Origin: Burkholderia anthina
GTDB lineage: Bacteria; Pseudomonadota; Gammaproteobacteria; Burkholderiales; Burkholderiaceae
Reading direction: 5' to 3'
NCBI RefSeq assembly: GCF_001547525.1
Contig: NZ_LNJP01000003.1
Location: 186,001 to 250,000 of the forward strand
Length of the DNA stretch: 64,000 bases
Shown: positions 1-40,730 of the stretch, piece after piece
Layout of the letters: every line of letters starts with the position of its first letter
How positions within the stretch are numbered: position 1 is the stretch's first letter
Made by a program: the position numbers and the translations under genes
The notes under the pieces: model-generated
Databases searched by the model: none
Seen by the model: the letters and a program-made list of their open reading frames with translations, nothing else
Told to the model about the DNA's origin: nothing

Positions 1-82
1 AAACGAAACAAGCCATCCCGACGGATGGCCCTCATGGACCGGGCAGGCGCCGCGCGCCCGCCCTGCCTGACAGGAGACAGCA

Positions 83-1354
83 GTGAAGACAGTCAAGGCG
101 TTGCGCTGGTGGATCATCGTGCTCGTGTGTCTCGGCACGATTCTCAACTACCTCGCACGGAATTCCCTCGCGGTGCTCGCGCCCGAGCTCAAGCAGGTGT
201 TCGCGATCTCGACGCAGCAGTACTCGTATATCGTCGGCGCGTTCCAGATCGGCTACACGATCATGCAGCCGGTATGCGGGTTCATCGTCGACCTGATCGG
301 GCTGCGGCTCGGCTTCGCGCTGTTCGCGATGCTGTGGTCGGTGGTCGGCGTCGCGCACGGCTTCGCGTCCGGCTGGCTGTCGCTCGGTATCCTGCGCGGC
401 TTTCTGGGCCTGTTCGAGGCGGCCGCGATTCCGTCGGGGATGAAGGCCGTCGCCGAATGGTTTCCCGACCGCGAGAAATCCGTCGCGGTGGGCTACTTCA
501 ACGCGGGCACGTCGCTCGGCGCCGCGATCGCGCCGCCGCTCGTCGTGTTCATCTCGATGCGGTTCGGCTGGCAGGCCGCGTTCATGGTCACCGGCGCGCT
601 CGGCTTCATCTGGGCCGCGCTCTGGTACACGCAGTACCGGTCGCCGGCCGACCATCCGCGCATCACGGCGCGGGAACGCACGCTGATCCGCGACGGCCAG
701 GCCACGATGCCGCCCGTGTCCAGGCGCCGCGTCCGCGACGTCGTCACCGCCCGGCGCTTCTGGGCGATCGCGCTGCCGCGCTTCTTCGCGGAGCCCGCAT
801 GGCAGACTTTCAGCTTCTGGATTCCGCTGTATCTCGCGACCGAGCGCCACATGCCGCTCACGCAGATCGCGGTGTTCGCGTGGATGCCGTTTCTCGCGGC
901 CGACCTCGGCGGCATCGCCGGCGGCTACCTGTCGCCCTACCTCGCGAACCGCTTCAAGCTGCCCCTCGTGTGGTCGCGCGTCGCCGGCGTCGCGCTCGGC
1001 GCGGTGCTGATGCTCGGGCCGGCGATGATCGGGCTCGTGTCGTCGCCGTACACCGCGATTGCGCTGTTCTGCGTCGGCGGCTTCGCGCACCAGATGATCT
1101 CCGCGCTCGTCAACACGCTGTCGGCCGACGTGTTCGATTCCGAGGAGGTCGGCACCGCCAGCGGCTTCGCCGGGATGGCCGCGTGGATCGGCGGCCTCGG
1201 CTTCTCGCTGCTGGTCGGCGCGCTCGCCGACAAGATCGGCTATGCGCCGCTGTTCGCGTGCCTCGGCCTGTTCGACATCATCGGCGTCACGCTGCTCGCG
1301 GTGCTGATCCGCGGCCAGTCGAAGCAGGAACGCCTGCTCGCGCAGCACGCCTGA
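83..1354 (+). CDS. MFS transporter, sugar/organic acid type
   Basis: A 423-residue inner-membrane permease of the major facilitator superfamily with about 12 hydrophobic segments. The N-terminus (residues 1-40) resembles the anion:cation symporter branch that includes hexuronate and phthalate transporters. Translation starts at a GTG preceded by AGGAG at 72-76. The 82 bases before it hold no gene but contain a small dyad (GCCATCC/GGATGGC, 12-29). The stop lies 26 bases before a GH31 glycosidase, so the two are probably co-transcribed and the permease likely imports a sugar or oligosaccharide that the hydrolase splits. The substrate cannot be read from the sequence. Confidence 0.88.
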   Translation: MKTVKALRWWIIVLVCLGTILNYLARNSLAVLAPELKQVFAISTQQYSYIVGAFQIGYTIMQPVCGFIVDLIGLRLGFALFAMLWSVVGVAHGFASGWLSLGILRGFLGLFEAAAIPSGMKAVAEWFPDREKSVAVGYFNAGTSLGAAIAPPLVVFISMRFGWQAAFMVTGALGFIWAALWYTQYRSPADHPRITARERTLIRDGQATMPPVSRRRVRDVVTARRFWAIALPRFFAEPAWQTFSFWIPLYLATERHMPLTQIAVFAWMPFLAADLGGIAGGYLSPYLANRFKLPLVWSRVAGVALGAVLMLGPAMIGLVSSPYTAIALFCVGGFAHQMISALVNTLSADVFDSEEVGTASGFAGMAAWIGGLGFSLLVGALADKIGYAPLFACLGLFDIIGVTLLAVLIRGQSKQERLLAQHA

Positions 1355-1380
1355 GCTCCGTTTTCACCAGGAATCGCCTT

Positions 1381-3801
1381 ATGACTTCGCTCCTTCATCC
1401 GCCCGTGTTCCGCGTCGCCAGCCACCACGCGAACCGCGTGCTGCTCGCGTCCGATACGGGCGCCACCCTCGAAATCTTCGTGCTCGAGGACGACATCGTG
1501 CGCTTGCGCGTGCTGCCCGACGCGACGGCGCGCACCCCGCGCACGTGGACCATCGCGCCCGGCCTCGACGACGTGCCGCTCGACGGGCGCGACCGGCTCG
1601 ACCTGAGCGGCTTCGCGCTGCCCCACTACGACTTCGCCGAAGACGACGACGGCGTGCGGATCGAAACCGCGCAGATCCGGCTCGCGGTGCGCCGGCAATG
1701 CGGCCATTGCACGTGGTCGATGCGCGGCGCGGACGGCGCATGGCGCGTCGCACTCGCCGACCGCGCGACGCAAGCGTACAACTTCGGCTGGTGGGACGAT
1801 CGTGCGTATCACTACGTCGCCCGCGAGCGGGGCGACAAGGTATTCGGCCTCGGCGAACGCGCGGGCGAACTCGACCGCACGGGCGCGCGCTTCGAGATGC
1901 GCAACATCGACGCGATGGGCTACAGCGCGAAGCACACCGACCCGCTTTACAAGCACATCCCGTTCTACATCACGTGGTCGCCCGATGCGCGCCAGGGGTT
2001 CGGGCTGTTCTACGACACGCTGTCGGACTGCACGTTCGACATGGGCCGCGAACTCGACAACTACCACGGGCTCTATCGCTACTTCGTCGCCGAACACGGC
2101 GATCTCGACTACTACTTCATCGCGTCGCCCGATACGCCGCTCGCGGCCGCGCGGCGCTTCACGTGGCTGACCGGGCGCCCCGCGCGCACGCCGAAATGGG
2201 GGCTCGGCTATTCGGGCTCGACGATGAGCTACACCGATGCGCCGGACGCGCAGCAGCAGATGAACCAGTTCGTCGAGCAGTGCGACGCACACGACATCCT
2301 GTGCGATTCGTTCCACCTGTCGTCGGGCTATACGTCGATCGGCGCGAAGCGCTACGTGTTCAACTGGAACCGCGACAAGTTTCCCGACGCGCAGGGTTTC
2401 GTGCAGCACTATCGCGACCACGGCATCCGCCTGTGCGCGAACATCAAGCCGTGCCTGCTGCGCGACCATCCGGCCTTCGACGACGCCGCGAAGCGCGGCC
2501 TGCTGATCCGCTCGGCCTGCGGCGAGCCCGCGTGGGTGCAGTTCTGGGACGAGGTCGGCGCGTACGTCGACTTCACGCAGCCGGACGCCTACTGCTGGTG
2601 GCGCGAGCAAGTCACGTCGGCGCTGCTGGAATACGGGATCGAGTCGACCTGGAACGACAACAACGAATACGAGATCTGGTCGCCCGACGCGATCGCGCAC
2701 GGCTTCGGCCAGCCGTTTCCGGCGCGCGAGGCGAAGGTCCTGCAGACGATGCTGATGATGCGCGCGTCGCGCGACGCGCAGCGCGCGCATGCGCCGGCGC
2801 GGCGGCCATTCCTCGTGTCGCGCTCCGGCGGCGCCGGCATGCAGCGCTACGTGCAGACGTGGTCCGGCGACAACTACACGTCGTGGGAAACGCTGCGCTA
2901 CAACCTGAAGATGGGCCTCGGGCTCGCGCTGTCGGGCGTATCGAACATCGGCCACGACATCGGCGGCTTCTCCGGCCCCGCGCCGTCGCCGGAGTTGCTG
3001 CTGCGCTGGGTGCAGTTCGGCATCTTCATGCCGCGCTTCAGCATTCATTCGTGGAACGACGACGGCACCGTCAACGAACCGTGGATGTACCCGGAGATCA
3101 CCGCGCAGATCGCGTCGCTGATCAAGCAGCGCTACCGGCTGCTGCCCTACCTCTATCACCTGCTGTGGTTGTCGACGACGCGCTACGAGCCCGTGCTGCG
3201 GCCGACCTTCGCCGACTTCCCGGGCGACGCGCGCTGCTACGACGCGTGCGACGACATGATGCTCGGCGACGCGCTGCTGGTCGCGCCGGTCGTCGATCCC
3301 GGCCAGTCCGAGCGCACGGTGTATCTGCCGTCGGGCGCACGCTGGACGTGCTGCGCGAGCGCGCAATCGTTCGACGGCGGCGCGAGCGTGACGCTGCCCG
3401 CGCCGCTCGACACGCCGGTGATGCTGCTGCGCGAAGGCCGCGTGCTGCCGCTGAACGTCGCGGAACAGCACTTCGGTGCGCGCGCCGACACGCGCGGCTT
3501 CCTCGTCGCGCCACGGATCGAGGACGGCGTCGCGTACGGCGAATGCATCGAGGACGACGGCGAAACGGAAGCGTGGCGCGACGGCGAATACGGACTGTGG
3601 CGCATCGAGACCGGCCGCGAAGCATCCGGCGCGCTCGGTGTGTCGGTCCGCTGGGACGGCCGCCCGGCGCGCCCGGCCGACCGTGTCGAGATCCTGCTGC
3701 CCGCGTCGCTGCAAGGCCCGGTGGCCGTGCGCGGTGCGCGCGTCGAGCAGGATACGCGGGACGGCGCATGGCGCCGCCTCGTCGTCGCGTTCGACCATTG
3801 A
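1381..3801 (+). CDS. glycoside hydrolase family 31 (alpha-glucosidase/alpha-xylosidase type)
   Basis: An 806-residue retaining alpha-glycosidase. The WNDNNE motif supplies the expected nucleophile at Asp426, and the WSGDN motif supplies the acid/base at Asp497. The N-terminal part (about 1-230) has the beta-sandwich character of GH31 enzymes. The (beta/alpha)8 barrel follows, then C-terminal beta domains from about residue 620. No signal peptide is visible, so it probably acts in the cytoplasm on a substrate brought in by the MFS permease just upstream. The ATG at 1381 gives the family's usual length; the longer open frame upstream is the antiphase of the permease gene. Choice between glucosidase, xylosidase and other GH31 activities is open. 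Confidence 0.9.
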   Translation: MTSLLHPPVFRVASHHANRVLLASDTGATLEIFVLEDDIVRLRVLPDATARTPRTWTIAPGLDDVPLDGRDRLDLSGFALPHYDFAEDDDGVRIETAQIRLAVRRQCGHCTWSMRGADGAWRVALADRATQAYNFGWWDDRAYHYVARERGDKVFGLGERAGELDRTGARFEMRNIDAMGYSAKHTDPLYKHIPFYITWSPDARQGFGLFYDTLSDCTFDMGRELDNYHGLYRYFVAEHGDLDYYFIASPDTPLAAARRFTWLTGRPARTPKWGLGYSGSTMSYTDAPDAQQQMNQFVEQCDAHDILCDSFHLSSGYTSIGAKRYVFNWNRDKFPDAQGFVQHYRDHGIRLCANIKPCLLRDHPAFDDAAKRGLLIRSACGEPAWVQFWDEVGAYVDFTQPDAYCWWREQVTSALLEYGIESTWNDNNEYEIWSPDAIAHGFGQPFPAREAKVLQTMLMMRASRDAQRAHAPARRPFLVSRSGGAGMQRYVQTWSGDNYTSWETLRYNLKMGLGLALSGVSNIGHDIGGFSGPAPSPELLLRWVQFGIFMPRFSIHSWNDDGTVNEPWMYPEITAQIASLIKQRYRLLPYLYHLLWLSTTRYEPVLRPTFADFPGDARCYDACDDMMLGDALLVAPVVDPGQSERTVYLPSGARWTCCASAQSFDGGASVTLPAPLDTPVMLLREGRVLPLNVAEQHFGARADTRGFLVAPRIEDGVAYGECIEDDGETEAWRDGEYGLWRIETGREASGALGVSVRWDGRPARPADRVEILLPASLQGPVAVRGARVEQDTRDGAWRRLVVAFDH

Positions 3802-5426: not shown

Positions 5427-7448
5427 ATGCCGGATCTCCGTCCCTCGCCTCGCACGACATTCAAGCCGCAGGTCGTCCTGCCCGCGCTCGCCGTGATCGG
5501 CGCGCTGCTCGTCGTGTGCGCGCTGCACCCGAGCGAAGCCGGCGCGCTGTTCCTCGCCGGCCAGCAATGGGTCATCGCACGTTTCGACTGGTTCTACGTG
5601 CTCGCCGTCACCGGCTTCCTCGTGTTTCTCGTGCTGATCGCCGCCAGCGACTTCGGCAAGATCCGGCTCGGCCCCGACGATGCCGAACCCGAATTCAGCT
5701 TCGTGTCGTGGACGGCGATGCTGTTCGCGGCCGGCATGGGCATCGGCCTGATGTACTTCGGCGTCGGCGAGCCGATGCAGCATTTCCTGAAGCCGCCGAC
5801 GGTCGCCCCCGGCACGCCCGATGCCGCGCGCGAGGCGATGCTGATGACCTTCTTCCACTGGGGCTTCCATGCGTGGGCCGTCTACGGGCTGATGGGGCTC
5901 GTGCTTGCGTACTTCGGCTTCCGCTACAACCTGCCGCTGACGCTGCGCTCGGGGCTGTATCCGGTGCTGCGCGAGCGCATCGACGGCTGGATCGGCCACA
6001 CGGTCGATGCGTTCGCGCTGGTCGGCACGGTCGCCGGCATCGCGACGACGCTCGGCTACGGCGTGATGCAGCTGAGCGCGGGCCTGCATACGGTCGCCGG
6101 CTGGGATACGGGCGGCAACCTGTTTCGCATCGGGCTCGTCGCGCTCGTCGTGATCCTCGCGGGCGTTTCGGCCGCGACCGGCCTCGACAAGGGCGTGCGC
6201 CGGCTGTCCGAGCTGAACCTGCTGCTCGCGTTCCTGCTGCTCGCGTTCGTGGCCATCGCCGGCCCGACGGCATTCCTGCTGCGCGCGCTCGCCGACAATA
6301 TCGGCCAGTACCTGTCGAGCCTCGTCGACCTGTCGTTCCGCACCTATGCGTACGCGCCGCCGCGCGAGGAAGGCTGGTTCGGCGGCTGGACGATCCTCTA
6401 CTGGGCGTGGTGGGTGTCGTGGTCGCCGTTCGTCGGCATGTTCATTGCGCGAATCTCGCGGGGCCGCACGATCCGCCAGTTCGTGATCGGCGTGCTGCTC
6501 GTGCCGACGGCGTTCAACCTCGTGTGGATGACGGTGTTCGGCAACAGCGCGATCTGGCTCGATACGCACGGCGCGGCCGGCGCGCTCGCGCAGACGGCGA
6601 CCAGCGTCGATGCGCTGCTGTTCCGCTTCTTCGATTTCCTGCCGTTGCCGCAACTGCTGTCGATCGTCGCGATCGTGCTGATCGCGGTGTTCTTCGTCAC
6701 GTCCGCGGATTCGGGCGCGTTCGTGATCGACCAGATCGCGACGCGCGGCAGCGCGCATTCGCCGGTCTGGCAGCGGCTGTTCTGGGCCGCGTTGCTCGGC
6801 GTGACGGCCGCGGTGCTGCTCGTCGCGGGCGGGCTCGGCGCATTGCAGGCGATGACGCTGATTGCCGCGCTGCCGGTCGCCCTCATCATGCTCGCGCTCT
6901 GCTATGGGCTGTGGCGCGGGCTCGCGGCCGACCGCGCGCACTATTCGCAGGACGTCGCACCCGCGACGAGCTTCTGGACCGGCCAGCACTGGCGCCATCG
7001 CCTGACGCACATCCTGCGTCAGACGACCGAGGCCGAGGCGCGCCAGTTCGTCGCGGAAACGGTCGAGCCCGCGCTGCGCAGGGTCGCCGACGAGTTGCGC
7101 GCGAGCGGCGTCGATGCGCACGTGCAGCGCGACAGCGACGATGCGGTGCGGCTCACCGTGCCGACCGCCGACCATCGCGATTTCGTGTACGGCGTGCGCG
7201 TCACCGCGAAATCCGCGGCCGCGTTCCTGGTGCGCGAGGCGGCCGAGCCCGACGCGTCGCGTGCGCACGTGTATGGCATCGTCACGTTCTTCGAGGATGG
7301 CCGGCTCGGCTACGACGTCGAATACCTGCGCGGCGACGAAGTGATCGCCGACGTGCTGCGCCAGTACGAACGCTACGTGTCGCTCGCGGCAGACACGCGC
7401 ACGCATCTGCTGAGCCGCGCGCCGGGGCACGCGACGGAGGCCGAATGA
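5427..7448 (+). CDS. betT: BetT-type BCCT choline/betaine transporter
   Basis: A 673-residue secondary transporter of the betaine/choline/carnitine family. It shows the GMGIG glycine motif (in AAGMGIGLMYFGVGEP, about residue 108) and the tryptophan-rich WAWWVSWSPFVGMF signature from Trp326, which lines the substrate site in the family. The about 170-residue C-terminal cytoplasmic domain is present, and the total length matches E. coli BetT (677). Choline uptake for glycine betaine synthesis is therefore the best guess. No betIBA genes lie in the window. The last codons overlap the next small gene by ATGA, so the two are translationally coupled. Confidence 0.88.
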   Translation: MPDLRPSPRTTFKPQVVLPALAVIGALLVVCALHPSEAGALFLAGQQWVIARFDWFYVLAVTGFLVFLVLIAASDFGKIRLGPDDAEPEFSFVSWTAMLFAAGMGIGLMYFGVGEPMQHFLKPPTVAPGTPDAAREAMLMTFFHWGFHAWAVYGLMGLVLAYFGFRYNLPLTLRSGLYPVLRERIDGWIGHTVDAFALVGTVAGIATTLGYGVMQLSAGLHTVAGWDTGGNLFRIGLVALVVILAGVSAATGLDKGVRRLSELNLLLAFLLLAFVAIAGPTAFLLRALADNIGQYLSSLVDLSFRTYAYAPPREEGWFGGWTILYWAWWVSWSPFVGMFIARISRGRTIRQFVIGVLLVPTAFNLVWMTVFGNSAIWLDTHGAAGALAQTATSVDALLFRFFDFLPLPQLLSIVAIVLIAVFFVTSADSGAFVIDQIATRGSAHSPVWQRLFWAALLGVTAAVLLVAGGLGALQAMTLIAALPVALIMLALCYGLWRGLAADRAHYSQDVAPATSFWTGQHWRHRLTHILRQTTEAEARQFVAETVEPALRRVADELRASGVDAHVQRDSDDAVRLTVPTADHRDFVYGVRVTAKSAAAFLVREAAEPDASRAHVYGIVTFFEDGRLGYDVEYLRGDEVIADVLRQYERYVSLAADTRTHLLSRAPGHATEAE

Positions 7449-32353: not shown

Positions 32354-33007
32354 GGCTGGTTATCTGACGCTTTGGTCTGTCGTTGACGTCGCGGGGGGTG
32401 TCTCCTGAGCGACGCGAAGCCCTTGGGGCCGCGAGGGGCGGCCCGGCACCACGGGCACGGTCGGAGTATCGCAGAGGCGATCGCCGCGAAATGTCCGCTG
32501 GATGCAAAAGATCCTTGCCGGATTTGCCGGGTATCGAACGACCGTTCCGTGACAGGCGATCGGCCTGCCCGATGCGCGCGAAAGGTACGTGAAAGCATCG
32601 GGGCGGAATCGCCGGTTCGCGATCGCCGGCCGTCGCGCATCAATCGACGGAGGTCCCTCGACATTGACGGCCTTTGGTTCGGCAATGGACGACACCCGTC
32701 CGGCGTGCCCGATTGTCGCCCGCTGCGCTCTTTCCCGGCCTGACGGAGGTCAAGCTCCGGTCCATCGCGCGCCGCCGGCCGACCGGCGCGAAAAGCGCGC
32801 CGGCGCCGGCCCGCGAAGCCCGTGCGGCCTTGACAGCCGCGCGATGCGGACCACACTGGAAAGTGGGTCCGGCCGCCTGGTCGGCGGCCTCGTTCGCCGG
32901 CGCGTTTTCGAACCGGCCGATGCCTGCAAGACGCGGTAACACTCCCGCATGTCAGGACATTGATCGAATAAAAAGCAACAAATTACAATTCCGTATATAT
33001 TTCGCCG
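32354..33007. other. 654-base intergenic region, CoA-transferase to phosphonate operon
   Basis: Open frames on both strands overlap each other and show no family features, so I see no gene here. The left part must hold the promoter of the CoA-transferase gene. The right end becomes AT-rich from about 32958 and contains the promoter of the phosphonate operon. Short dyads occur (CAGGC/GCCTG near 32550), none convincing. Confidence 0.45.
32960..32989 (+). promoter_or_regulatory. sigma-70-like promoter of the phosphonate operon
   Basis: TTGATC (32960-32965) and TACAAT (32984-32989) are 18 bases apart in a locally AT-rich stretch. Transcription would start near 32996, only about a dozen bases before the ATG at 33008, with no clear Shine-Dalgarno. 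Translation may therefore be leaderless or nearly so. Confidence 0.6.
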
Positions 33008-33697
33008 ATGGACCAAAGAAAAACCGCCACACACCCCGAACCGCCCCTGCCACGCACGTGGGATGCGCGGCTCGCGCGCTCGCTTGTCCGACCGCTCGTC
33101 GATACGCCGGTCACCCCGAATCACCTCACCACCCTTCGCCTGCTGATCGGCCTCGCCGGCGCCTGGTGCCTCGCGCACGGCGGCTTCGGCTGGAGCAATG
33201 CGGGCGCGTTCCTGATCGTGCTGTCGAACTTCGTCGACCACACCGACGGCGAGCTCGCGCGCATCAGCGGCAAGTCCAGCAAGATCGGTCATTTTTACGA
33301 CCTCGCGGCCGATGCGCTCGTCACGGTCGCGCTGTTCGTCAGCATGGGCGTCGGCATCGTCGCCCAGGGCGGCCAGATGGCCGCGTCGCCGGTGCTGCTC
33401 GGCGCCGTGGCCGGCGCGGCCGTCGCGCTGATCTTCTTCCTGCGCATGCGGATCGAATCGATCGCCGGCAAGGCCGGCACCAAGCAGGCGTTCGCCGGCG
33501 GCTTCGAGACCGAGGACGTGCTGTACCTGCTGCCGATCGTGACGCTCGTCGACGGCGTGCAGCCGTTCCTGCTCGCGGCGTCGATCGGCGCCCCGCTGTT
33601 CGCCGCCTGGGTCGTGATCGACTGGTGGCGCGTCGTGCGGCGCGGCAACCGCGGCGACCTTTCGCAGAATTCAACCGAAATCCAGGCTTCCAAATGA
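33008..33697 (+). CDS. CDP-alcohol phosphatidyltransferase family protein
   Basis: A 229-residue integral membrane enzyme. The signature D-x2-D-G-x2-A-R-x8-G-x3-D-x3-D is complete from Asp77 (DHTDGELAR) to YDLAADA. It is followed by several hydrophobic helices. The family moves a phosphoalcohol from a CDP-alcohol to a second alcohol, releasing CMP. First in an operon that makes CMP-activated 2-aminoethylphosphonate, it is the natural candidate to transfer the phosphonate onto diacylglycerol or another lipid alcohol. The next gene overlaps it by ATGA. Confidence 0.9.
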   Translation: MDQRKTATHPEPPLPRTWDARLARSLVRPLVDTPVTPNHLTTLRLLIGLAGAWCLAHGGFGWSNAGAFLIVLSNFVDHTDGELARISGKSSKIGHFYDLAADALVTVALFVSMGVGIVAQGGQMAASPVLLGAVAGAAVALIFFLRMRIESIAGKAGTKQAFAGGFETEDVLYLLPIVTLVDGVQPFLLAASIGAPLFAAWVVIDWWRVVRRGNRGDLSQNSTEIQASK

Positions 33698-34503
33698 CTC
33701 CTAGCACGCGCGACGATTCCGTGCTGAGCCCGGCACGCCCCGCGCCCGTGCGCGCGAAGGCGGCCGATCCCGATCGCACCGTGGCCGACTGCGTCGGCCG
33801 GCTCGACCTCGAGCGCCTGCGTGGCGACTACACGCGCCAGGGCTCGTTCCTCTATCTCGACGCATTCCTGCCGGCCGACGCGCACGCGAAGCTGGCGGAT
33901 GCCGCGCGTGCGATGCAGGCCGGCCTGAACCGCAATTACCTGCCCGGCCACAAGCAGGGCGGCAGCGTGAGCCGCCATACGATCGACGAGCAGGCGCCGT
34001 ACATCGCCGAGCTGTATCGCTCGAAGGCGCTGATCGGCTTCCTCGAGAAAATCACCGGCGACAAGCTGATGCTGTCGCCGGACGACGATCCGCACGCGTA
34101 CGCGCTCTACTACTACACGAAACCCGGCGACCACATCGGCTGGCACTACGACACGTCGTACTACGACGGCCGCCGCTACACGCTGCTGATCGGCGTGATC
34201 GACGAATCGTCGTGCCGACTCGACTACGAGCTGCATACGCGCAACCCGGACGTGCCCGACGAACCGGGCTCCGTGCAGATCGCCGACGGCGGCATCGTGC
34301 TGTTCGACGGCGACAAGCTGCGCCACCGCATCACGCCGCTCGGCCAGAACGAGATGCGCGTGTCGCTCACGTTCGAATACGTGACGAACCCCGGCATGCG
34401 GCCGTGGAAGCGTTTCATCTCGAACATGAAGGACGCGATCGCGTATTTCGGTTTCCGCCAGGTCTTCAAGCAGCTGGCGACGCGACGCACGAGCGGGTCA
34501 TGA
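33694..34503 (+). CDS. Fe(II)/2-oxoglutarate-dependent oxygenase
   Basis: A 269-residue protein of the 2OG-Fe(II) oxygenase superfamily. The facial triad is visible as His151-x-Asp153 (GWHYDTSYY) and His211 (LRHRITPL), with Arg222 (MRVSLTF) for 2-oxoglutarate binding. Both ends overlap neighbours by ATGA, so it belongs firmly to the phosphonate operon. Hydroxylation of aminoethylphosphonate, or of the lipid carrying it, at C-1 is a reasonable guess, since hydroxylated phosphonolipids are known in nature. The substrate is not proven. Confidence 0.85.
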   Translation: MTPSTRDDSVLSPARPAPVRAKAADPDRTVADCVGRLDLERLRGDYTRQGSFLYLDAFLPADAHAKLADAARAMQAGLNRNYLPGHKQGGSVSRHTIDEQAPYIAELYRSKALIGFLEKITGDKLMLSPDDDPHAYALYYYTKPGDHIGWHYDTSYYDGRRYTLLIGVIDESSCRLDYELHTRNPDVPDEPGSVQIADGGIVLFDGDKLRHRITPLGQNEMRVSLTFEYVTNPGMRPWKRFISNMKDAIAYFGFRQVFKQLATRRTSGS

Positions 34504-35501
34504 CACGCGCGGGCCTCATCCTGCTGTCCCTCGGGACCGCACTCTTCATCGCCCTGCTGGCCTGGCAAGGCGTCGGCGCGGTGGCGTCCACGTTCCTCGC
34601 GGCCGGCTGGGGCCTCGCGCTCGTCGCGGCGTTCCACGTCGTGCCGCTCGTGATCGACGCAGTAGCCATTACGGTCATGTTCCGCCGCGGACAGCCGGGC
34701 GCCGAACTCGGCAATGCGCTGCGCGCGCGCTGGGTCGGCGAGTCGGTGAACAGCCTGCTGCCCGCCGGGCAGATCGGCGGCCCCGTGCTGATGGTGCGCC
34801 ACCTCGCGCAGCGCGGCACGCGGATGGCCGACGCGGCCGCCGCCGTGACCGTCGGCACGACGATGCAGGCGCTCTCGCAGATGGCCTTCGCGCTGATCGG
34901 CATCGCCGCGTTCAGCCTGTATGCGACGCACGAGTCGGTCGCGCACCTGCGCACGCCCGCGCTGATCGCCACCGGCGTGCTCGGCGCGCTCGCGGTGATG
35001 TTCTATCTGGCGCAGCGGCGCGGCCTGTTCGGCCGCGGCCTGCGCCTCGCGTCGAAGCTGCTCGGCCCGCGCGATTGGTCGTCGCTCGCCACGCGCGCCG
35101 ACGCGATCGACGGCGCCGTCGGCGCGCTGTACCGCGACCGCGCGAAAGTCGCGAAGACCTTCGCGTTGAGTCTCGTCGGCTGGATCGTCGGCACCGCGGA
35201 AGTGTGGCTCGCGCTGCACTTCCTCGGGCATCCGGTGAGCTGGCTCGACGCGCTGCTGCTCGAAAGCGTCGGCCAGGCGATTCGCGGCGCGGCCTTCGCG
35301 ATCCCGGGCTCGCTCGGTGCGCAGGAAGGCGGCTACCTGCTGCTCGCGCCGCTGGTCGGCTTGCCGCCCGACGCGGCGCTCGCGCTGTCGCTCGCGAAGC
35401 GTGCGCGCGAACTCGCGCTCGGCCTGCCCGGCCTGCTCTATCTGCATTTCAGTGAAAGAAACTGGCAGCGGCGCCGTGCGCCGCAGCCGCTCGCCGACTG
35501 A
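34500..35501 (+). CDS. lysylphosphatidylglycerol synthase TM-domain (flippase-like) protein
   Basis: A 333-residue membrane protein with about eight hydrophobic helices, of the UPF0104/MprF-N family that also includes HpnL of hopanoid clusters. Typical conserved parts are [20 protein letters not shown] (about 77-96) and [17 protein letters not shown] (about 263-279). Family members flip or move lipids across the inner membrane. In this operon it could translocate the finished phosphonolipid. It overlaps the oxygenase gene by ATGA and is followed after 35 bases by the nucleotidyltransferase gene. Confidence 0.87.
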
Positions 35502-35536
35502 TCGTTCAGATCGCCGGCTTTTTGGTTGGAGAACCC

Positions 35537-36304
35537 ATGCGAGCCATCATTCTTGCGGCAGGCCTCGGCTTGCGCCTGCAACAACCGCCCGAAGCGCAGT
35601 TTCCGAAGTGCCTGCTGCGCTTCGACGACGTGTCGCTGCTCGAGCGCCATCTGCGCGTGCTCGACGCCGCGGGCGTCGACGAGATCGTGCTCGGGCTCGG
35701 CTTTCAGCACGAGAAGGTCGAGCAGGAACTGAAGCGCCTCGGCCGCACCGCCGAGATCGTGATCAACGACCGCTACGACCTCGGCAGCGTGCTGACCGTG
35801 CATACCGTCGCCGAGGCAATGACGCGCGGCGGCGACGTGCTGCTGATGGACGCGGACGTGCTGTACGACGAGAACATCCTGCATGCGCTAGTGGCCGATT
35901 CCGACCGCGCGGTCGACCGCCTGCTGATCGACCGCGACTTCGAAGCCGGCGACGAACCCGTCAAGCTGTGCCTGAAGAACGGCGTGCCGGTCGAGCTGCG
36001 CAAGCAGCTCGCGGTCGACCTCGACTACGACACGATCGGCGAATCCGTCGGCTTCTTCCGCTTCACCGAAGGCACCGCGCGCCGCCTCGCGACGATCGTC
36101 GCGGGCTACGTCGACAGCGGCCGCGCGAACATGCCGCACGAGGAAGCCGTGCGCGACCTGCTGCTCGAAGGCGGCCATTCGTTCGACGTCGCCGACGTCA
36201 CCGGCTCGCCGTGGATCGAGATCGATTTCCCGAACGACGTCGCACGCGCGACGCAAGACATTCTTCCCCTGATTCAACGCACTACCGCCGGAGCCGCACG
36301 ATGA
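35537..36304 (+). CDS. NTP transferase (phosphocholine cytidylyltransferase-like)
   Basis: A 255-residue nucleotidyltransferase of the GlmU/LicC fold. The N-terminus [14 protein letters not shown] and FPKCLLRF form the nucleotide-binding loop and metal motif, DADVLYD (about 99) supplies the metal-binding Asp, and ESVGFFRF and IEIDFPND occur further on as in LicC-like cytidylyltransferases. A TGGAGA ribosome site precedes the ATG. The operon already has a nucleotidyltransferase domain fused to PEP mutase, so this one probably activates a second phosphoalcohol, or the two split the work for different phosphonates. Confidence 0.85.
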
Positions 36305-37986
36305 ACGCACGCGAACCCAACTTCACCGAATCGCGCAGCGCGCGCCTGCGCCGCATGCTCGTCAGCAGCGATCTCGAATTCCTGATGGAAGCGCACAACG
36401 GCCTGTCCGCGCGGATCGTCCGCGAGGCCGGCTTCAAGGGCATCTGGGCCTCGGGCCTCGCGATCTCCGCGCAGTTCGGCGTGCGCGACAACAACGAAGC
36501 GAGCTGGACGCAGGTCGTCGACGTGCTCGAATTCATGGCCGACGCGAGCGACCTGCCGATCCTGCTCGACGGCGACACCGGCTACGGCAACTTCAACAAC
36601 GTGCGCCGCCTCGTGAAGAAGCTCGAGCAGCGCGGCATCGCCGGCGTGTGCATCGAGGACAAGCAGTTTCCGAAGACCAACAGCTTCATCGGCGGCGAAC
36701 GCCAGCCGCTCGCCGAGATCGACGAATTCTGCGGCAAGATCAAGGCCGGCAAGGATTCGCAGACCGACCCCGACTTCTCGATCGTCGCGCGCGTCGAAGC
36801 GCTGATCGCGGGCTGGGGGATGGACGAGGCGCTGCGCCGCGCGAACGCGTACGCGGAAGCCGGCGCCGACGCGATCCTGATCCACAGCAAGCTGTCGCGT
36901 CCCGACGAAATCCTGCAGTTCGCACGCGAATGGAGCGGCAAGGCGCCGCTCGTGATCGTGCCGACCAAGTACTACAGCACGCCGACCGACGTGTTCCGCC
37001 AGGCCGGCATCAGCACCGTGATCTGGGCGAACCACCTGATCCGCGCGTCGGCATCCGCGATGCAGGCGACCGCGCGCGAGATCCACGAGAGCCAAACGCT
37101 GATCAACGTCGAGGACCGCGTCGCATCGGTCAACGAGATCTTCCGCCTGCAGGACGCCGACGAGTACTCGGCTGCCGAGCGTATCTACCTGTCTTCGTCG
37201 TCGCGCGCGTCGAATGCGGCGATCGTGCTCGCCGCGAGCCGCGGCAAGGGCCTCGAAGCCGTCACCGAAGATAAACCCAAGGTCATGCTGCCGGTCGCCG
37301 GCAAGCCGCTGCTGCGCTGGCTCGTCGACGGCTTCAAGACGCACGGCGTGAACGACATCACCGTGGTCGGCGGCTATCGCGCCGATGCGATCGACACGTC
37401 GGGCATCAAGCTCGTCGTCAACGAGCGCCATGCGCAGACGGGCGAGCTCGCATCGCTCGCGTGCGCGGCCGACCGCCTGACCGGCGACACCGTGATCTCG
37501 TACGGCGACCTGCTGTTCCGCAGCTACATCGTGCGCGACCTCGCGGAGAGCGAGGCCGAGTTCAGCGTGGTGGTCGATTCGTCGCTCACCGAGACCAACC
37601 AGAGCGTGCGCGACTTCGCCCTCTGCTCGGCGGCCGACGATCGCGGCCTGTTCGGTCAGAAGACCTACCTGCAGCGCGTGTCGAGCGACGTCGCCGCGGG
37701 CACGCCGCACGGCCGCTGGATCGGCCTGCTGAACGTGCGCGGCGCCGGCGTCGACCGCCTGAAGGCGATGCTCGCGACGCTGCAGGCGCGTCCTGATTTC
37801 GACACGCTCGACATCCCGTCGCTGCTGAACGAACTGATCGCCGCCGGCGAGAAGATCGAGGTGCAGTACGTGCACGGCCATTGGCGCGGCGTCAACGACC
37901 TCGAAGACTTCCGCCGCGCGGGCGATTTCGCGCACGGCCAGACGCCGCTGTCCGAGCCGGGCACCGCCAACGGGGGCGCGCAATGA
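36301..37986 (+). CDS. aepX: phosphoenolpyruvate mutase fused to nucleotidyltransferase (PepM-PntC)
   Basis: A 561-residue bifunctional enzyme. Residues 1-300 are PEP mutase: the diagnostic EDKxxxxxNS motif is present as [10 protein letters not shown] (Glu119-Ser128), with [13 protein letters not shown] before it. This domain turns PEP into phosphonopyruvate. Residues about 315-545 are a MobA-like nucleotidyltransferase ([26 protein letters not shown]), the PntC type known to form CMP-2-aminoethylphosphonate. The fusion therefore carries both the first step and the activation step. ATGA overlaps occur at both ends. Confidence 0.93.
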
Positions 37987-39164
37987 TCGAGGCGGCCCAG
38001 TTCGTCGAGGCCGCGCGCGAACGCGGCTTCGACTGGTACGCGGGCGTGCCCTGCTCGTACCTGACGCCGTTCATCAATTACGTGTTGCAGGACCCGACGC
38101 TGCATTACGTGTCGGCCGCGAACGAAGGCGACGCGGTCGCACTGATCGCCGGCGCGACGCTCGGCGGCAAGCGCGGGATCGCGATGATGCAGAACTCGGG
38201 GCTCGGCAACGCGGTGAGCCCGCTCACGTCGCTCACCTGGACGTTCCGCCTGCCGCAGTTGCTGATCGTCACGTGGCGCGGCCAGCCGGGCGTGGCCGAC
38301 GAGCCGCAGCACGCGCTGATGGGCCCGATCACGCCCGCGATGCTCGACACGATGGAGATCCCGTGGGAGACGTTCCCGACCGACCCGGAACAGGTCGGCC
38401 CGGCACTCGACCGCGCGATCGCGCACATGGACGCGACGGGCCGCCCGTACGCGCTCGTGATGCAGAAAGGCAGCGTCGCGCCGTATGAACTGAAGGCGAA
38501 CCCGGCCGCGAAGCCGCGCGCGCACGTCGCCGCGCAATCGTCGGCGCGCGCCGCGTCGGCCGATGCATGGCCGACCCGTCACGACGCGCTGCAACGCGTG
38601 ATTGCGCATACGCCGGTCGATTCGACCGTCGTGCTCGCGTCGACCGGTTTCTGCGGCCGCGAACTCTACGCGCTCGACGATCGCCCGAACCAGCTTTACA
38701 TGGTCGGCTCGATGGGCTGCGTGACGCCGCTCGCGCTCGGCCTCGCGCTCGCGCGCCCCGACCTGCGCGTGGTGGCCGTCGACGGCGACGGCGCCGCGCT
38801 GATGCGCATGGGCGTGTTCGCAACGCTCGGTACCTACGGCCCGGCCAACCTCACGCACGTGCTGCTCGACAATGGCGCGCACGAATCGACGGGCGGCCAG
38901 GCGACGGTGTCGCAGCATGTGTCGTTCGCGGGTGTCGCCGCTTCGTGCGGTTATGCGTCGGCGGTCGAAGGCGATACGCTCGACGTGCTCGATGCGGCGC
39001 TGGCTGCCACGGGCGACGGTGCACAGTTCGTGCGCATTGCGATCCGCACCGGCGTGCCCGACGGCCTGCCGCGCCCGACCGTCACGCCGGTCGAGGTCAA
39101 GACCCGTCTGATGCGGCACATCGGCGCCGCGCAGACCGAAGCCCACGTCGAAGGAGCCCATTGA
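37983..39164 (+). CDS. aepY: phosphonopyruvate decarboxylase
   Basis: A 393-residue thiamine-diphosphate enzyme. The cofactor motif GDG (268-270) to Asn297 is present ([12 protein letters not shown] through LLDNG), and the catalytic glutamate lies in [14 protein letters not shown]. It decarboxylates phosphonopyruvate to phosphonoacetaldehyde, making the unfavourable mutase step irreversible. It overlaps the mutase gene by ATGA and the transaminase gene by one base (TGATG). Confidence 0.93.
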
Positions 39165-40228
39165 TGCTGCTGCTGAACCCCGGCCCGGTCACGCTCTCCG
39201 AACGCGTGCGCCGCAGCCTGCTGCAACCCGACCTGTGCCATCGCGAAGGCGAATTCTTCGACTTGCAGGACGAAGCGCGCGCGCGGCTCGTTGCCGCGTA
39301 TGAACTCGACCCGGCCGAATGGGCCGCCGTGCTGATGACCGGTTCCGGCACCGCCGCCGTCGAAAGCATGATCGCCGCGCTCGTGCCGCAGGACGGCAAG
39401 CTGCTCGTGATCGAGAACGGCGTGTACGGCGAGCGGATCACGCAGATCGCCACGCAGTACGGCATCGCGCACGATGTGCTGAAGCACGAGTGGATGCAGG
39501 CGCCGGATGTCGCGCAGATTGGCGCTCGCCTCGACGCGGGCCGCTACTCGCATGTCGCGGTGATCCATCACGAAACGACGACGGGCCGGCTGAACGACCT
39601 CGGCGCCATCGCCGAGGTGTGCCGTGCGCGCGGCGTGAAGATGCTCGTGGACGGCGTCAGCAGCTTCGGCGCGGAAGCGATCGATTTTGCAGGTGGCGAC
39701 ATCGATGCGGTTGCCGCGACCGCGAACAAGTGCCTGCATGGTGTGCCGGGTGCCGCGTTCGTGATCGTGCGCCGTAGTGCGCTCGCGAAGGCCGCGAGCC
39801 GCACGTATTACCTCGATCTCGGGCGGCTTGCGAAGCTGCAGGATCAGCGGAATACGCCGTTTACGCCGTCCGTGCATGCGTATTACGCGTTGGTCGAAGC
39901 GCTGCGCGAGTTCGATGAGGCCGGCGGCTGGCGTGCTCGGCATGCGCATTACAAGGCGCTTGCCGATCAGGCGCAGGCGGGGCTTGTTGCACGCGGGATG
40001 CCGCTGGTGCTGCCGGAAGGCGAGTCGTCGGTGGTTTTGCGTGCGTACAGGCTGCCGCAGGGTGTGACGTACGAAACCCTGCACGACGGGCTGAAGGCGC
40101 GCGGCTTCGTGATCTACGCCGGGCAAGGCGGGCTGTCGAAGGAACTGTTCCGGATCTCGACGATGGGCGCGATTCAGGCGGCCGATGTCGAGCGGTTGCT
40201 GGATGGTTTTACCCAGTTGACGCGGTAA
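39164..40228 (+). CDS. phnW: 2-aminoethylphosphonate:pyruvate transaminase
   Basis: A 354-residue class V aminotransferase-fold enzyme with the PLP lysine at Lys189 (ATANKCLHG). LLLNPGPVTLSERVR at the N-terminus is typical of PhnW/AEPT. Acting in the biosynthetic direction, it turns phosphonoacetaldehyde into 2-aminoethylphosphonate. AAGGAG precedes the ATG. No phosphonate-degrading genes (phnX, C-P lyase) are nearby, which supports synthesis over breakdown. It is last in the operon and is followed by a terminator. Confidence 0.92.
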   Translation: MLLLNPGPVTLSERVRRSLLQPDLCHREGEFFDLQDEARARLVAAYELDPAEWAAVLMTGSGTAAVESMIAALVPQDGKLLVIENGVYGERITQIATQYGIAHDVLKHEWMQAPDVAQIGARLDAGRYSHVAVIHHETTTGRLNDLGAIAEVCRARGVKMLVDGVSSFGAEAIDFAGGDIDAVAATANKCLHGVPGAAFVIVRRSALAKAASRTYYLDLGRLAKLQDQRNTPFTPSVHAYYALVEALREFDEAGGWRARHAHYKALADQAQAGLVARGMPLVLPEGESSVVLRAYRLPQGVTYETLHDGLKARGFVIYAGQGGLSKELFRISTMGAIQAADVERLLDGFTQLTR

Positions 40229-40253
40229 GCGCTGCCCTCACCTTCGTCCACGA

Positions 40254-40276
40254 AAGGCCCGCAAGGGCCTTTTTTC
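40254..40276 (+). terminator. rho-independent terminator of the phosphonate operon
   Basis: AAGGCCC-GCAA-GGGCCTT stem with a run of T after it, 25 bases beyond the transaminase stop. It cleanly marks the 3' end of the seven-gene unit. Confidence 0.9.
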
Positions 40277-40322: not shown

Positions 40323-40640
40323 CTATCCCCTGGGGTGTTTCATTTCCTCGGCCTCCACCGCGGCGAGCCGTTCTTCGCTGGCGGAAACAGATCCCATGGC
40401 TTCGTCGATCGATGCCAATGCAAACTCGCATGCCAGTCTCGTTTCTTCAACGGTGGGCTCCGGCTTCTCATCGTCGTTCGGCGGAGGCGCAAGCATGTCG
40501 CCGAGCATCATTGCCAGTTCCTGGGTATCCCATTGCTCGCCCCTTTGCTCCTTCCTCTTGATGTAATGCCGGATTTCCGCGTCTTGCTCCGGCGAGAGCG
40601 GGAGATGTCGAAACGTGTTGCTTGGGCTGGCGTCAATCAT
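40323..40640 (-). CDS. hypothetical protein, 105 residues
   Basis: An acidic, helical cytoplasmic protein with no family I recognise. The start at MIDASPSNTFRHLPL is chosen for AGGAG seven bases before the ATG. The body has SPEQDAEIRHYIKRKEQRG at about 15-35 and ends in a helix rich in Glu and Ala. It lies 90 bases downstream of another small unknown gene on the same strand. Confidence 0.6.
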   Translation of the reverse strand: MIDASPSNTFRHLPLSPEQDAEIRHYIKRKEQRGEQWDTQELAMMLGDMLAPPPNDDEKPEPTVEETRLACEFALASIDEAMGSVSASEERLAAVEAEEMKHPRG

Positions 40641-40730
40641 GATGTTGCTCCTGAATTTGAAATCGGCTTGCTCGAGCTGCCCCCGGTTACGCGTGCAGCC
40701 GCGGAATAACAAGGGCGACCGAACAGAGGC

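Follow-up and report, generated by a model that had tools for sequence, protein, structure and literature searches.

A phosphonate operon of Burkholderia anthina and its proposed role in building hopanoid head groups

The operon and its enzymes

The window analysed here is a stretch of 64,000 nucleotides from Burkholderia anthina (assembly GCF_001547525.1, contig NZ_LNJP01000003.1, positions 186,001 to 250,000). Its subject is a phosphonate operon of seven genes, all on the + strand, which span positions 33008-40228 in the open reading frame (ORF) reading of the window and are predicted to make 2-aminoethylphosphonate (AEP) and attach it to a lipid. The features are as follows.

32960..32989, + strand: weak sigma-70-like promoter match 5' of gene 1 (scan)
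33008..33697, + strand: gene 1, CDP-alcohol phosphatidyltransferase (PT), 229 aa, PF01066
33694..34503, + strand: gene 2, 2-oxoglutarate (2OG)-Fe(II) oxygenase, HalD/BesD-like fold, HxD kept, 269 aa
34500..35501, + strand: gene 3, HpnL-type flippase-like membrane protein, 333 aa, TIGR03476
35537..36304, + strand: gene 4, stand-alone MobA-like nucleoside triphosphate (NTP) transferase, 255 aa, PF12804
36301..37986, + strand: gene 5, phosphoenolpyruvate (PEP) mutase (PepM) fused to a second NTP transferase domain, 561 aa, TIGR02320
37983..39164, + strand: gene 6, phosphonopyruvate decarboxylase (Ppd), 393 aa, TIGR03297
39164..40228, + strand: gene 7, AEP transaminase (AEPT), 354 aa, TIGR03301
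40252..40273, + strand: rho-independent terminator-like hairpin, then a T run (scan), beginning 24 bases beyond the gene 7 stop

An earlier note on this DNA had described a co-directional phosphonate operon of seven genes ending at a terminator, and the present reading agrees. Its picture of a transcript sealed by ATGA overlaps stands for four joints (33694-33697, 34500-34503, 36301-36304 and 37983-37986); genes 6 and 7 are instead joined by TGATG (39162-39166), and a gap of 35 bases separates gene 3, whose stop ends at 35501, from the start of gene 4 at 35537. The terminator scan returned six sites against 5.3 expected in shuffles, which alone is not significant, and the single promoter match in the region compares with 0.8 expected by chance and is not evidence on its own. 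The gene inventory of the note was sound for the AEP route, the CDP-alcohol transferase and the flippase, all three of which are borne out below, and it did not consider the oxygenase or the stand-alone nucleotidyltransferase.

The three downstream enzymes all exceed the curated cut-offs of their families: 407 bits against TIGR02320 for gene 5 (cut-off 319.6), 482 against TIGR03297 for gene 6 (cut-off 312.5) and 394 against TIGR03301 for gene 7 (cut-off 360.8). In addition, a stretch of ten residues in gene 5 fits the PEP mutase motif EDKXXXXXNS, as quoted in the accessible text of PMC6697681. With these matches the predicted PepM-Ppd-AEPT route is complete, and mutase, decarboxylase and transaminase would make AEP by the established chemistry of their families.

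Activation of AEP as CMP-AEP, which the note had ascribed to the PEP mutase fusion, is less simply assigned. The fused domain of gene 5 (37201-37983) has a variant nucleotide-binding motif, LAASRGKGL, and in most relatives its copies show LAA[S/T/A]RG in place of LAAGxG, with LGATRG and LAASQG as further variants; among the loci compared (L numbers denote loci, and G numbers genomes, of our collections), L107 has GAGSGK, nearer the usual motif, and the L095 sequence is cut short. Gene 4, on the other hand, retains the canonical LAAGxGxRL, with few departures among relatives (L105, L107, L173, L180). It also matches the solved nucleotidyltransferase/class V aminotransferase chain 6pd1, which we take to be PntC of T. 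denticola, at E 2.6e-11 over residues 2-246, better than the fused domain does. Because it keeps the canonical motif and gives the better match to 6pd1, gene 4 rather than the fused domain is likely to be the PntC-like CTP:AEP cytidylyltransferase and, by homology to PntC, would supply CMP-AEP. The fused domain as sole maker of CMP-AEP is weakened by the variant motif in most copies, and the assignment made in the note stays unproven; the variant suggests a different substrate or a regulatory role.

Gene 1 matches CDP-OH_P_transf (PF01066) at 54.8 bits (cut-off 22; E 1.9e-14). The motif of CDP-alcohol phosphatidyltransferases is D-x2-D-G-x2-A-R-x8-G-x3-D-x3-D, and the columns invariant among 36 aligned PT sequences (D77, D80, G81, A84, R85, G94, D98 and D102) agree with it. 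An AlphaFold2 model of PT has a pLDDT of 90.3, and the nearest solved fold is the CDP-alcohol phosphotransferase AF2299 (E 6e-6). Family match, motif and predicted fold all support the transferase.

The flippase-like protein, gene 3, can be identified more closely, matching HpnL (TIGR03476) at 370.8 bits, nearly twice the cut-off of 195.65. The genome contains one further HpnL match, at C1:864105, whose neighbours are a glycosyltransferase, a radical SAM protein and a YdjC-like deacetylase in an hpnI-J-K-like order; this reading of the neighbours is supported by matches to Nostoc proteins assigned to HpnJ, HpnK and HpnI in NCBIfam. Two genes for squalene-hopene cyclase (SHC) are also present, and the host is predicted to make hopanoids on the strength of these two genes and of HpnH, known from all 50 of the relatives searched. 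The function of hpnL, and of HpnA, is stated as not established in the accessible text of PMC12583986.

The oxygenase, gene 2, matches the HalD family at 49.2 bits (cut-off 26), and its closest solved folds are HalD/BesD amino-acid halogenases and a BesD-like hydroxylase (7u6h, 6nie, 7jsd). In HalD/BesD halogenases the Asp of HxD is replaced so that chloride can bind. The gene 2 family differs in retaining it, H151 and D153 being invariant in 52 aligned sequences, and identity to HalD/BesD is just 17-20%. An Fe-dependent halogenase was therefore rejected, and since the Asp is kept the enzyme appears hydroxylase-like. Its presence suggests a hydroxylated head group.

Linkage, co-occurrence and conservation

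A collection of one genome per species (84,980 species) was scanned with the oxygenase alignment, giving 438 relatives, of which the best 80 loci were kept. Neighbouring genes were called by tblastn with operon and hpn references, at >=34% identity over >35% of the reference and within ~10 kb. A hopanoid gene lies near 44 of these best 80 named loci, divided between 29 of the 53 not titled Burkholderiales and 15 of the 27 Burkholderiales, the latter all having hpnN. Two of the 44 (L070, L099) supplied some of the references, and one miss (L096) is a third genome already seen. Clustering with hpn genes, as expected of a hopanoid-modifying system, is found in relatives and not in the window itself.

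In Salinisphaera hydrothermalis (L097) a single strand carries squalene synthase/SHC, hpnG, hpnN, PT, hpnA, two further frames, oxygenase, HpnL, NTP transferase, PepM fusion, Ppd, AEPT and hpnH. SHC, HpnN, HpnA, HpnL and HpnH lie above their NCBIfam cut-offs at this locus, and HpnG, at 162.5 bits, below its 187.1. One ORF of 1009 aa (13-3042) covers both the squalene-synthase-like part and SHC here and is perhaps a fusion. In Nostoc L071, HpnJ, HpnK and HpnI, all over cut-off, are encoded directly 5' of PT-oxygenase-NTP transferase-PepM-Ppd-AEPT. The phosphonate genes of L050 lie beside HpnA (488 bits, cut-off 368), together with an HpnG-like phosphorylase and a squalene-synthase-like protein that both fall below their cut-offs, and those of L052 beside HpnN (1000 bits, cut-off 752) and HpnA (519), with PT abutting hpnN and hpnA. 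Where the module is split in Nostoc, hpnH is found no more than ~5 kb from the AEP half in L199, L200 and L202, not in L201.

Five hopanoid-phosphonate clusters (L170, L171, L172, L177, L180) have no oxygenase, and none was found elsewhere in those genomes, which makes the oxygenase an optional tailoring step. Two weak relatives of the oxygenase, L053 and L054, stand without further operon genes in the 20 kb read, and their genomes (G132, G327) are not among the SHC-positive ones; both were set aside.

Co-occurrence was assessed in three sets of genomes. The first, 50 oxygenase-bearing genomes obtained by thinning the set of 80 loci, yielded SHC (sought as TIGR01507) in 48 and HpnH in all 50. 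The second comprised 274 genomes drawn evenly from the class of the window, taken to be Gammaproteobacteria as GTDB defines it, of which 41 have SHC. PEP mutase exceeds its cut-off in 19 of the 274, and 17 of these 19 are SHC-positive (Fisher p 5e-14). PT above 80 bits is present in 17, all SHC-positive (Fisher p 3e-16), a count that leaves out three weak matches at 42-50 bits, two of them SHC-positive. When each family label is counted once, 10 of 12 PEP-mutase families have SHC (Fisher p 2e-7, assuming 172 family labels, a number taken from the highest label seen). Nine of the 17 genomes with both PEP mutase and SHC have a hopanoid gene around the PEP mutase (<=~10 kb a side), as against neither of the two SHC-negative PEP-mutase genomes; the genome of the window is among the eight without such a neighbour. 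In the third set, 249 genomes of the family, SHC is present in 178. All 145 oxygenase carriers are SHC-positive (G040 only at E 2e-82), and the oxygenase is absent from all 71 SHC-negative genomes.

Those 145 carriers represent 11 of the 25 genera sampled. Within the genus itself, the oxygenase is found in 64 of 65 genomes and a match to the PEP mutase fusion (>=552 of 561 residues) in 63 of 65, G025 having it in pieces and G016 not at all. G016 lacks the oxygenase as well and keeps SHC, which makes it a ready-made control for lipid studies. At the DNA level the operon shares 92-96% identity with records of B. cenocepacia, B. arboris, B. stagnalis and B. multivorans. All seven genes occur together in 14 of the 15 family loci read (seven of the same genus, eight of other genera); one of the 14, L061, has two genes in pieces, and the remaining locus, L063, keeps genes 1-4 alone in place. 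Being near-universal in the genus and kept as a seven-gene block in the family, the operon is close to a core trait, unlike a patchy secondary-metabolite cluster.

Genes 1-4 are found without adjoining genes 5-7 in L063, L139, L140, L143 and L145-L148. L063 and the Paraburkholderia genomes encode a true PEP mutase at another site, which shows the operon to have been split into halves there; L148, a gammaproteobacterial metagenome-assembled genome (MAG), has no PEP mutase match above 110 bits. Altogether, 27 genomes lack genes 5-7 next door, which raised the idea that genes 1-4 might act there in the absence of AEP synthesis: 19 have a PEP mutase over cut-off elsewhere, and in three Nitrospirae the match is 271-288 bits, short of the cut-off of 320. 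Six Rokubacteria loci (L104, L105, L113, L127, L133, L144) pair oxygenase, PT-like and NTP transferase-like genes, with SHC nearby in all but L144. As four of these six genomes have no convincing PEP mutase, another phosphonate source or another substrate is possible in Rokubacteria.

The acceptor of the phosphonate

With a probability of roughly 0.65, we consider that the operon makes AEP and puts it, probably hydroxylated, on an extended hopanoid, which is the best-supported acceptor. From gene content, linkage and co-occurrence we infer every step after AEP. As gene linkage and co-occurrence suggest, PT would use the CMP ester as donor and link the phosphonate to a bacteriohopanepolyol hydroxyl, and this acceptor would be bacteriohopanetetrol (BHT) or its glucosamine or cyclitol form, drawn from the chromosomal SHC-HpnH-HpnG pathway. 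The oxygenase may hydroxylate the aminophosphonate, given its HxD site and its resemblance in fold to enzymes whose substrates are small free amino acids. HpnL would flip the finished lipid, and HpnN, which in other systems is established to carry hopanoids to the outer membrane (PMC12583986, accessible text), may complete its transport.

Several observations weigh against the hopanoid. In the 64-kb window, searches with hpnA, D, E, G, H, I, J, K, N, SHC and squalene synthase references found no hopanoid gene besides HpnL. No hopanoid gene was seen near 36 of the 80 named loci, some of whose contigs end early, and in four Burkholderiaceae (L195-L198) the AEP half has moved away to a place with no hopanoid neighbour. 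The flippases of L051 and L052 match HpnL at only 140-142 bits, below the cut-off. SHC was not found in L095 (a 1.8 Mb assembly) or L134, though both have HpnH and L134 keeps squalene synthase-hpnG-hpnN-PT-hpnA in place. Conversely, the oxygenase is missing from 33 SHC carriers in the family sample, so that hopanoids do not need the operon; these carriers include G016 and also G344, G364 and G394 (1.2 Mb), whose genus label g229 also holds oxygenase carriers of 3.3-3.8 Mb. Five of the 27 genomes lacking genes 5-7 next door, namely four Rokubacteria MAGs and one gammaproteobacterial MAG, have no PEP mutase above 130 bits, and either these MAGs are incomplete or another substrate is used. The co-occurrence is partly shared ancestry, which inflates the counts. 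Finally, no report of a phosphonate hopanoid was among the open-licence literature matches listed for hopanoid or bacteriohopane with phosphonate terms.

A finer version of the hopanoid reading, in which the acceptor is a composite hopanoid such as glucosaminyl-BHT or BHT cyclitol ether and the phosphonate sits on its sugar or cyclitol, not on the BHT chain, is a tentative candidate. The genes hpnJ-hpnK-hpnI stand directly before the module in Nostoc L071, L077 and L080, and B. cenocepacia makes BHT cyclitol ether, recorded at m/z 708.540 in PMC8560942, in whose accessible text the word phosphonate does not occur. The linked gammaproteobacterial loci, which have hpnA/G/H/N and SHC and no hpnI/J/K above 34% identity, speak against this version.

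The earlier note had proposed an AEP lipid by analogy with phosphatidylethanolamine. A lipid acceptor is indeed likely, but the analogy is probably wrong about which lipid, since the flippase belongs to the HpnL family and hopanoid genes accompany the module. In its explicit form, PT would act like a CDP-ethanolamine transferase, with CMP-AEP as donor and diacylglycerol as acceptor of the AEP, and linkage to hopanoid genes would reflect joint management of membrane lipids. Diacylglycerol is a well-known acceptor for the CDP-alcohol transferase fold (the cholinephosphotransferases 8ero and 8ul9 are at ranks 20 and 27 of the PT fold search), and a phosphonolipid has been proposed in the accessible text of PMC5987646. 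Three facts would then go unexplained: in the class sample, all 17 genomes with a PT homologue above 80 bits are SHC-positive; in L052, PT lies immediately beside hpnN and hpnA; and the flippase is HpnL. We regard a glycerophosphonolipid as unlikely.

Decoration of polysaccharide or lipopolysaccharide, as in known phosphonoglycans, is a fate discussed for AEP clusters in the accessible text of PMC6697681; it is very improbable here, the transferase being of the integral membrane CDP-alcohol type and none of the seven genes matching a LicD-like transferase or glycosyltransferase model in Pfam or NCBIfam. A free or excreted small phosphonate, with the membrane genes incidental, would fit the many phosphonate gene clusters of Burkholderia (PMC12871164, accessible text) and is the least credible explanation of an operon that is near-universal in the genus, is kept in 3.3 Mb Mycetohabitans genomes (L125, L132) and has PT and flippase co-conserved.

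Related systems and implications

The phosphonolipid idea for this cluster is already in print. PMC5987646 (2018), in the part available, shows the same cluster in a lichen Nostoc beside its Burkholderia homologue (CDP-alcohol transferase, OG-Fe(II) oxidase, NTP transferase, pepM, ppd, AEPT and hpnL), proposes phosphonolipids and has HAEP in its abbreviation list; the word hopanoid does not occur in its main text. PMC8776678 (2021) reports, in its accessible text, a link between the SHC and PEP mutase genes in some Roseomonas and suggests an undiscovered terpene-phosphonate. That hybrid cluster resembles the present system in the linkage, but it is noted there for Acetobacteraceae, with no transferase, flippase, head-group mechanism or tie to the Burkholderia operon in the same text.

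Two biochemical systems also invite comparison. The PntC pathway (Rice 2019, PMC6697681) likewise has PEP mutase, decarboxylase, transaminase and a LicC-like cytidylyltransferase, and includes clusters with both a fused and a separate nucleotidyltransferase. In the accessible text its three studied clusters have LicD-like phosphotransferases or glycosyltransferases nearby, whereas a CDP-alcohol transferase and HpnL are found here. IPCT-DIPPS (4mnd) pairs a MobA-like cytidylyltransferase with a CDP-alcohol transferase, and genes 4 and 1 match it weakly; it is one polypeptide with inositol substrates, unlike the separate genes of the operon.

Beyond the single operon, the balance tips slightly towards a joint reading in which phosphonohopanoids, hopanoids headed by AEP or its hydroxylated form, make up a class of bacterial membrane lipid that is widespread yet overlooked, and in which PEP mutase serves mainly to make them in the window's class, where 17 of 19 PEP-mutase genomes are SHC-positive. 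Such lipids would be near-universal in Burkholderia and common in Burkholderiaceae, and would extend to Cyanobacteria, other Gammaproteobacteria, Nitrospinota, Rokubacteria and Verrucomicrobia. Hopanoids are bacterial sterol surrogates, counterparts of cholesterol, and the parent compounds of the hopanes used as geological biomarkers. Hopanoids capped with a phosphonate would represent a new, so far undescribed class of membrane lipids; their zwitterionic C-P head group would change the picture of how hopanoids sit in the membrane, HpnL (and perhaps HpnA) would gain a pathway and many PEP mutase genes a product. The partner to which AEP is attached in Burkholderia would become addressable by mass spectrometry.

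Some minor features of the loci may also be recorded. Two hopanoid-phosphonate clusters each have two PT-like genes, at 5611 and 9329 in L089 and at 5744 and 9323 in L091, with 53% and 41-42% identity to the PT references; the members of a pair perhaps have different acceptors. In Pandoraea and Mycetohabitans loci (e.g. L108, L125) a dxs homologue comes after the operon, and in most Pandoraea loci hpnN follows on the other strand; AEPT is often followed by dxs and hpnH in gammaproteobacterial loci. The phosphonate module also occurs in two MAG records under the title Klebsiella pneumoniae, with hpnA in one (L085) and hpnH in the other (L088); these names look wrong. Lastly, 3' of the terminator in the window lies an ORF of 129 aa on the - strand (40326-40712), without a Pfam or NCBIfam match.

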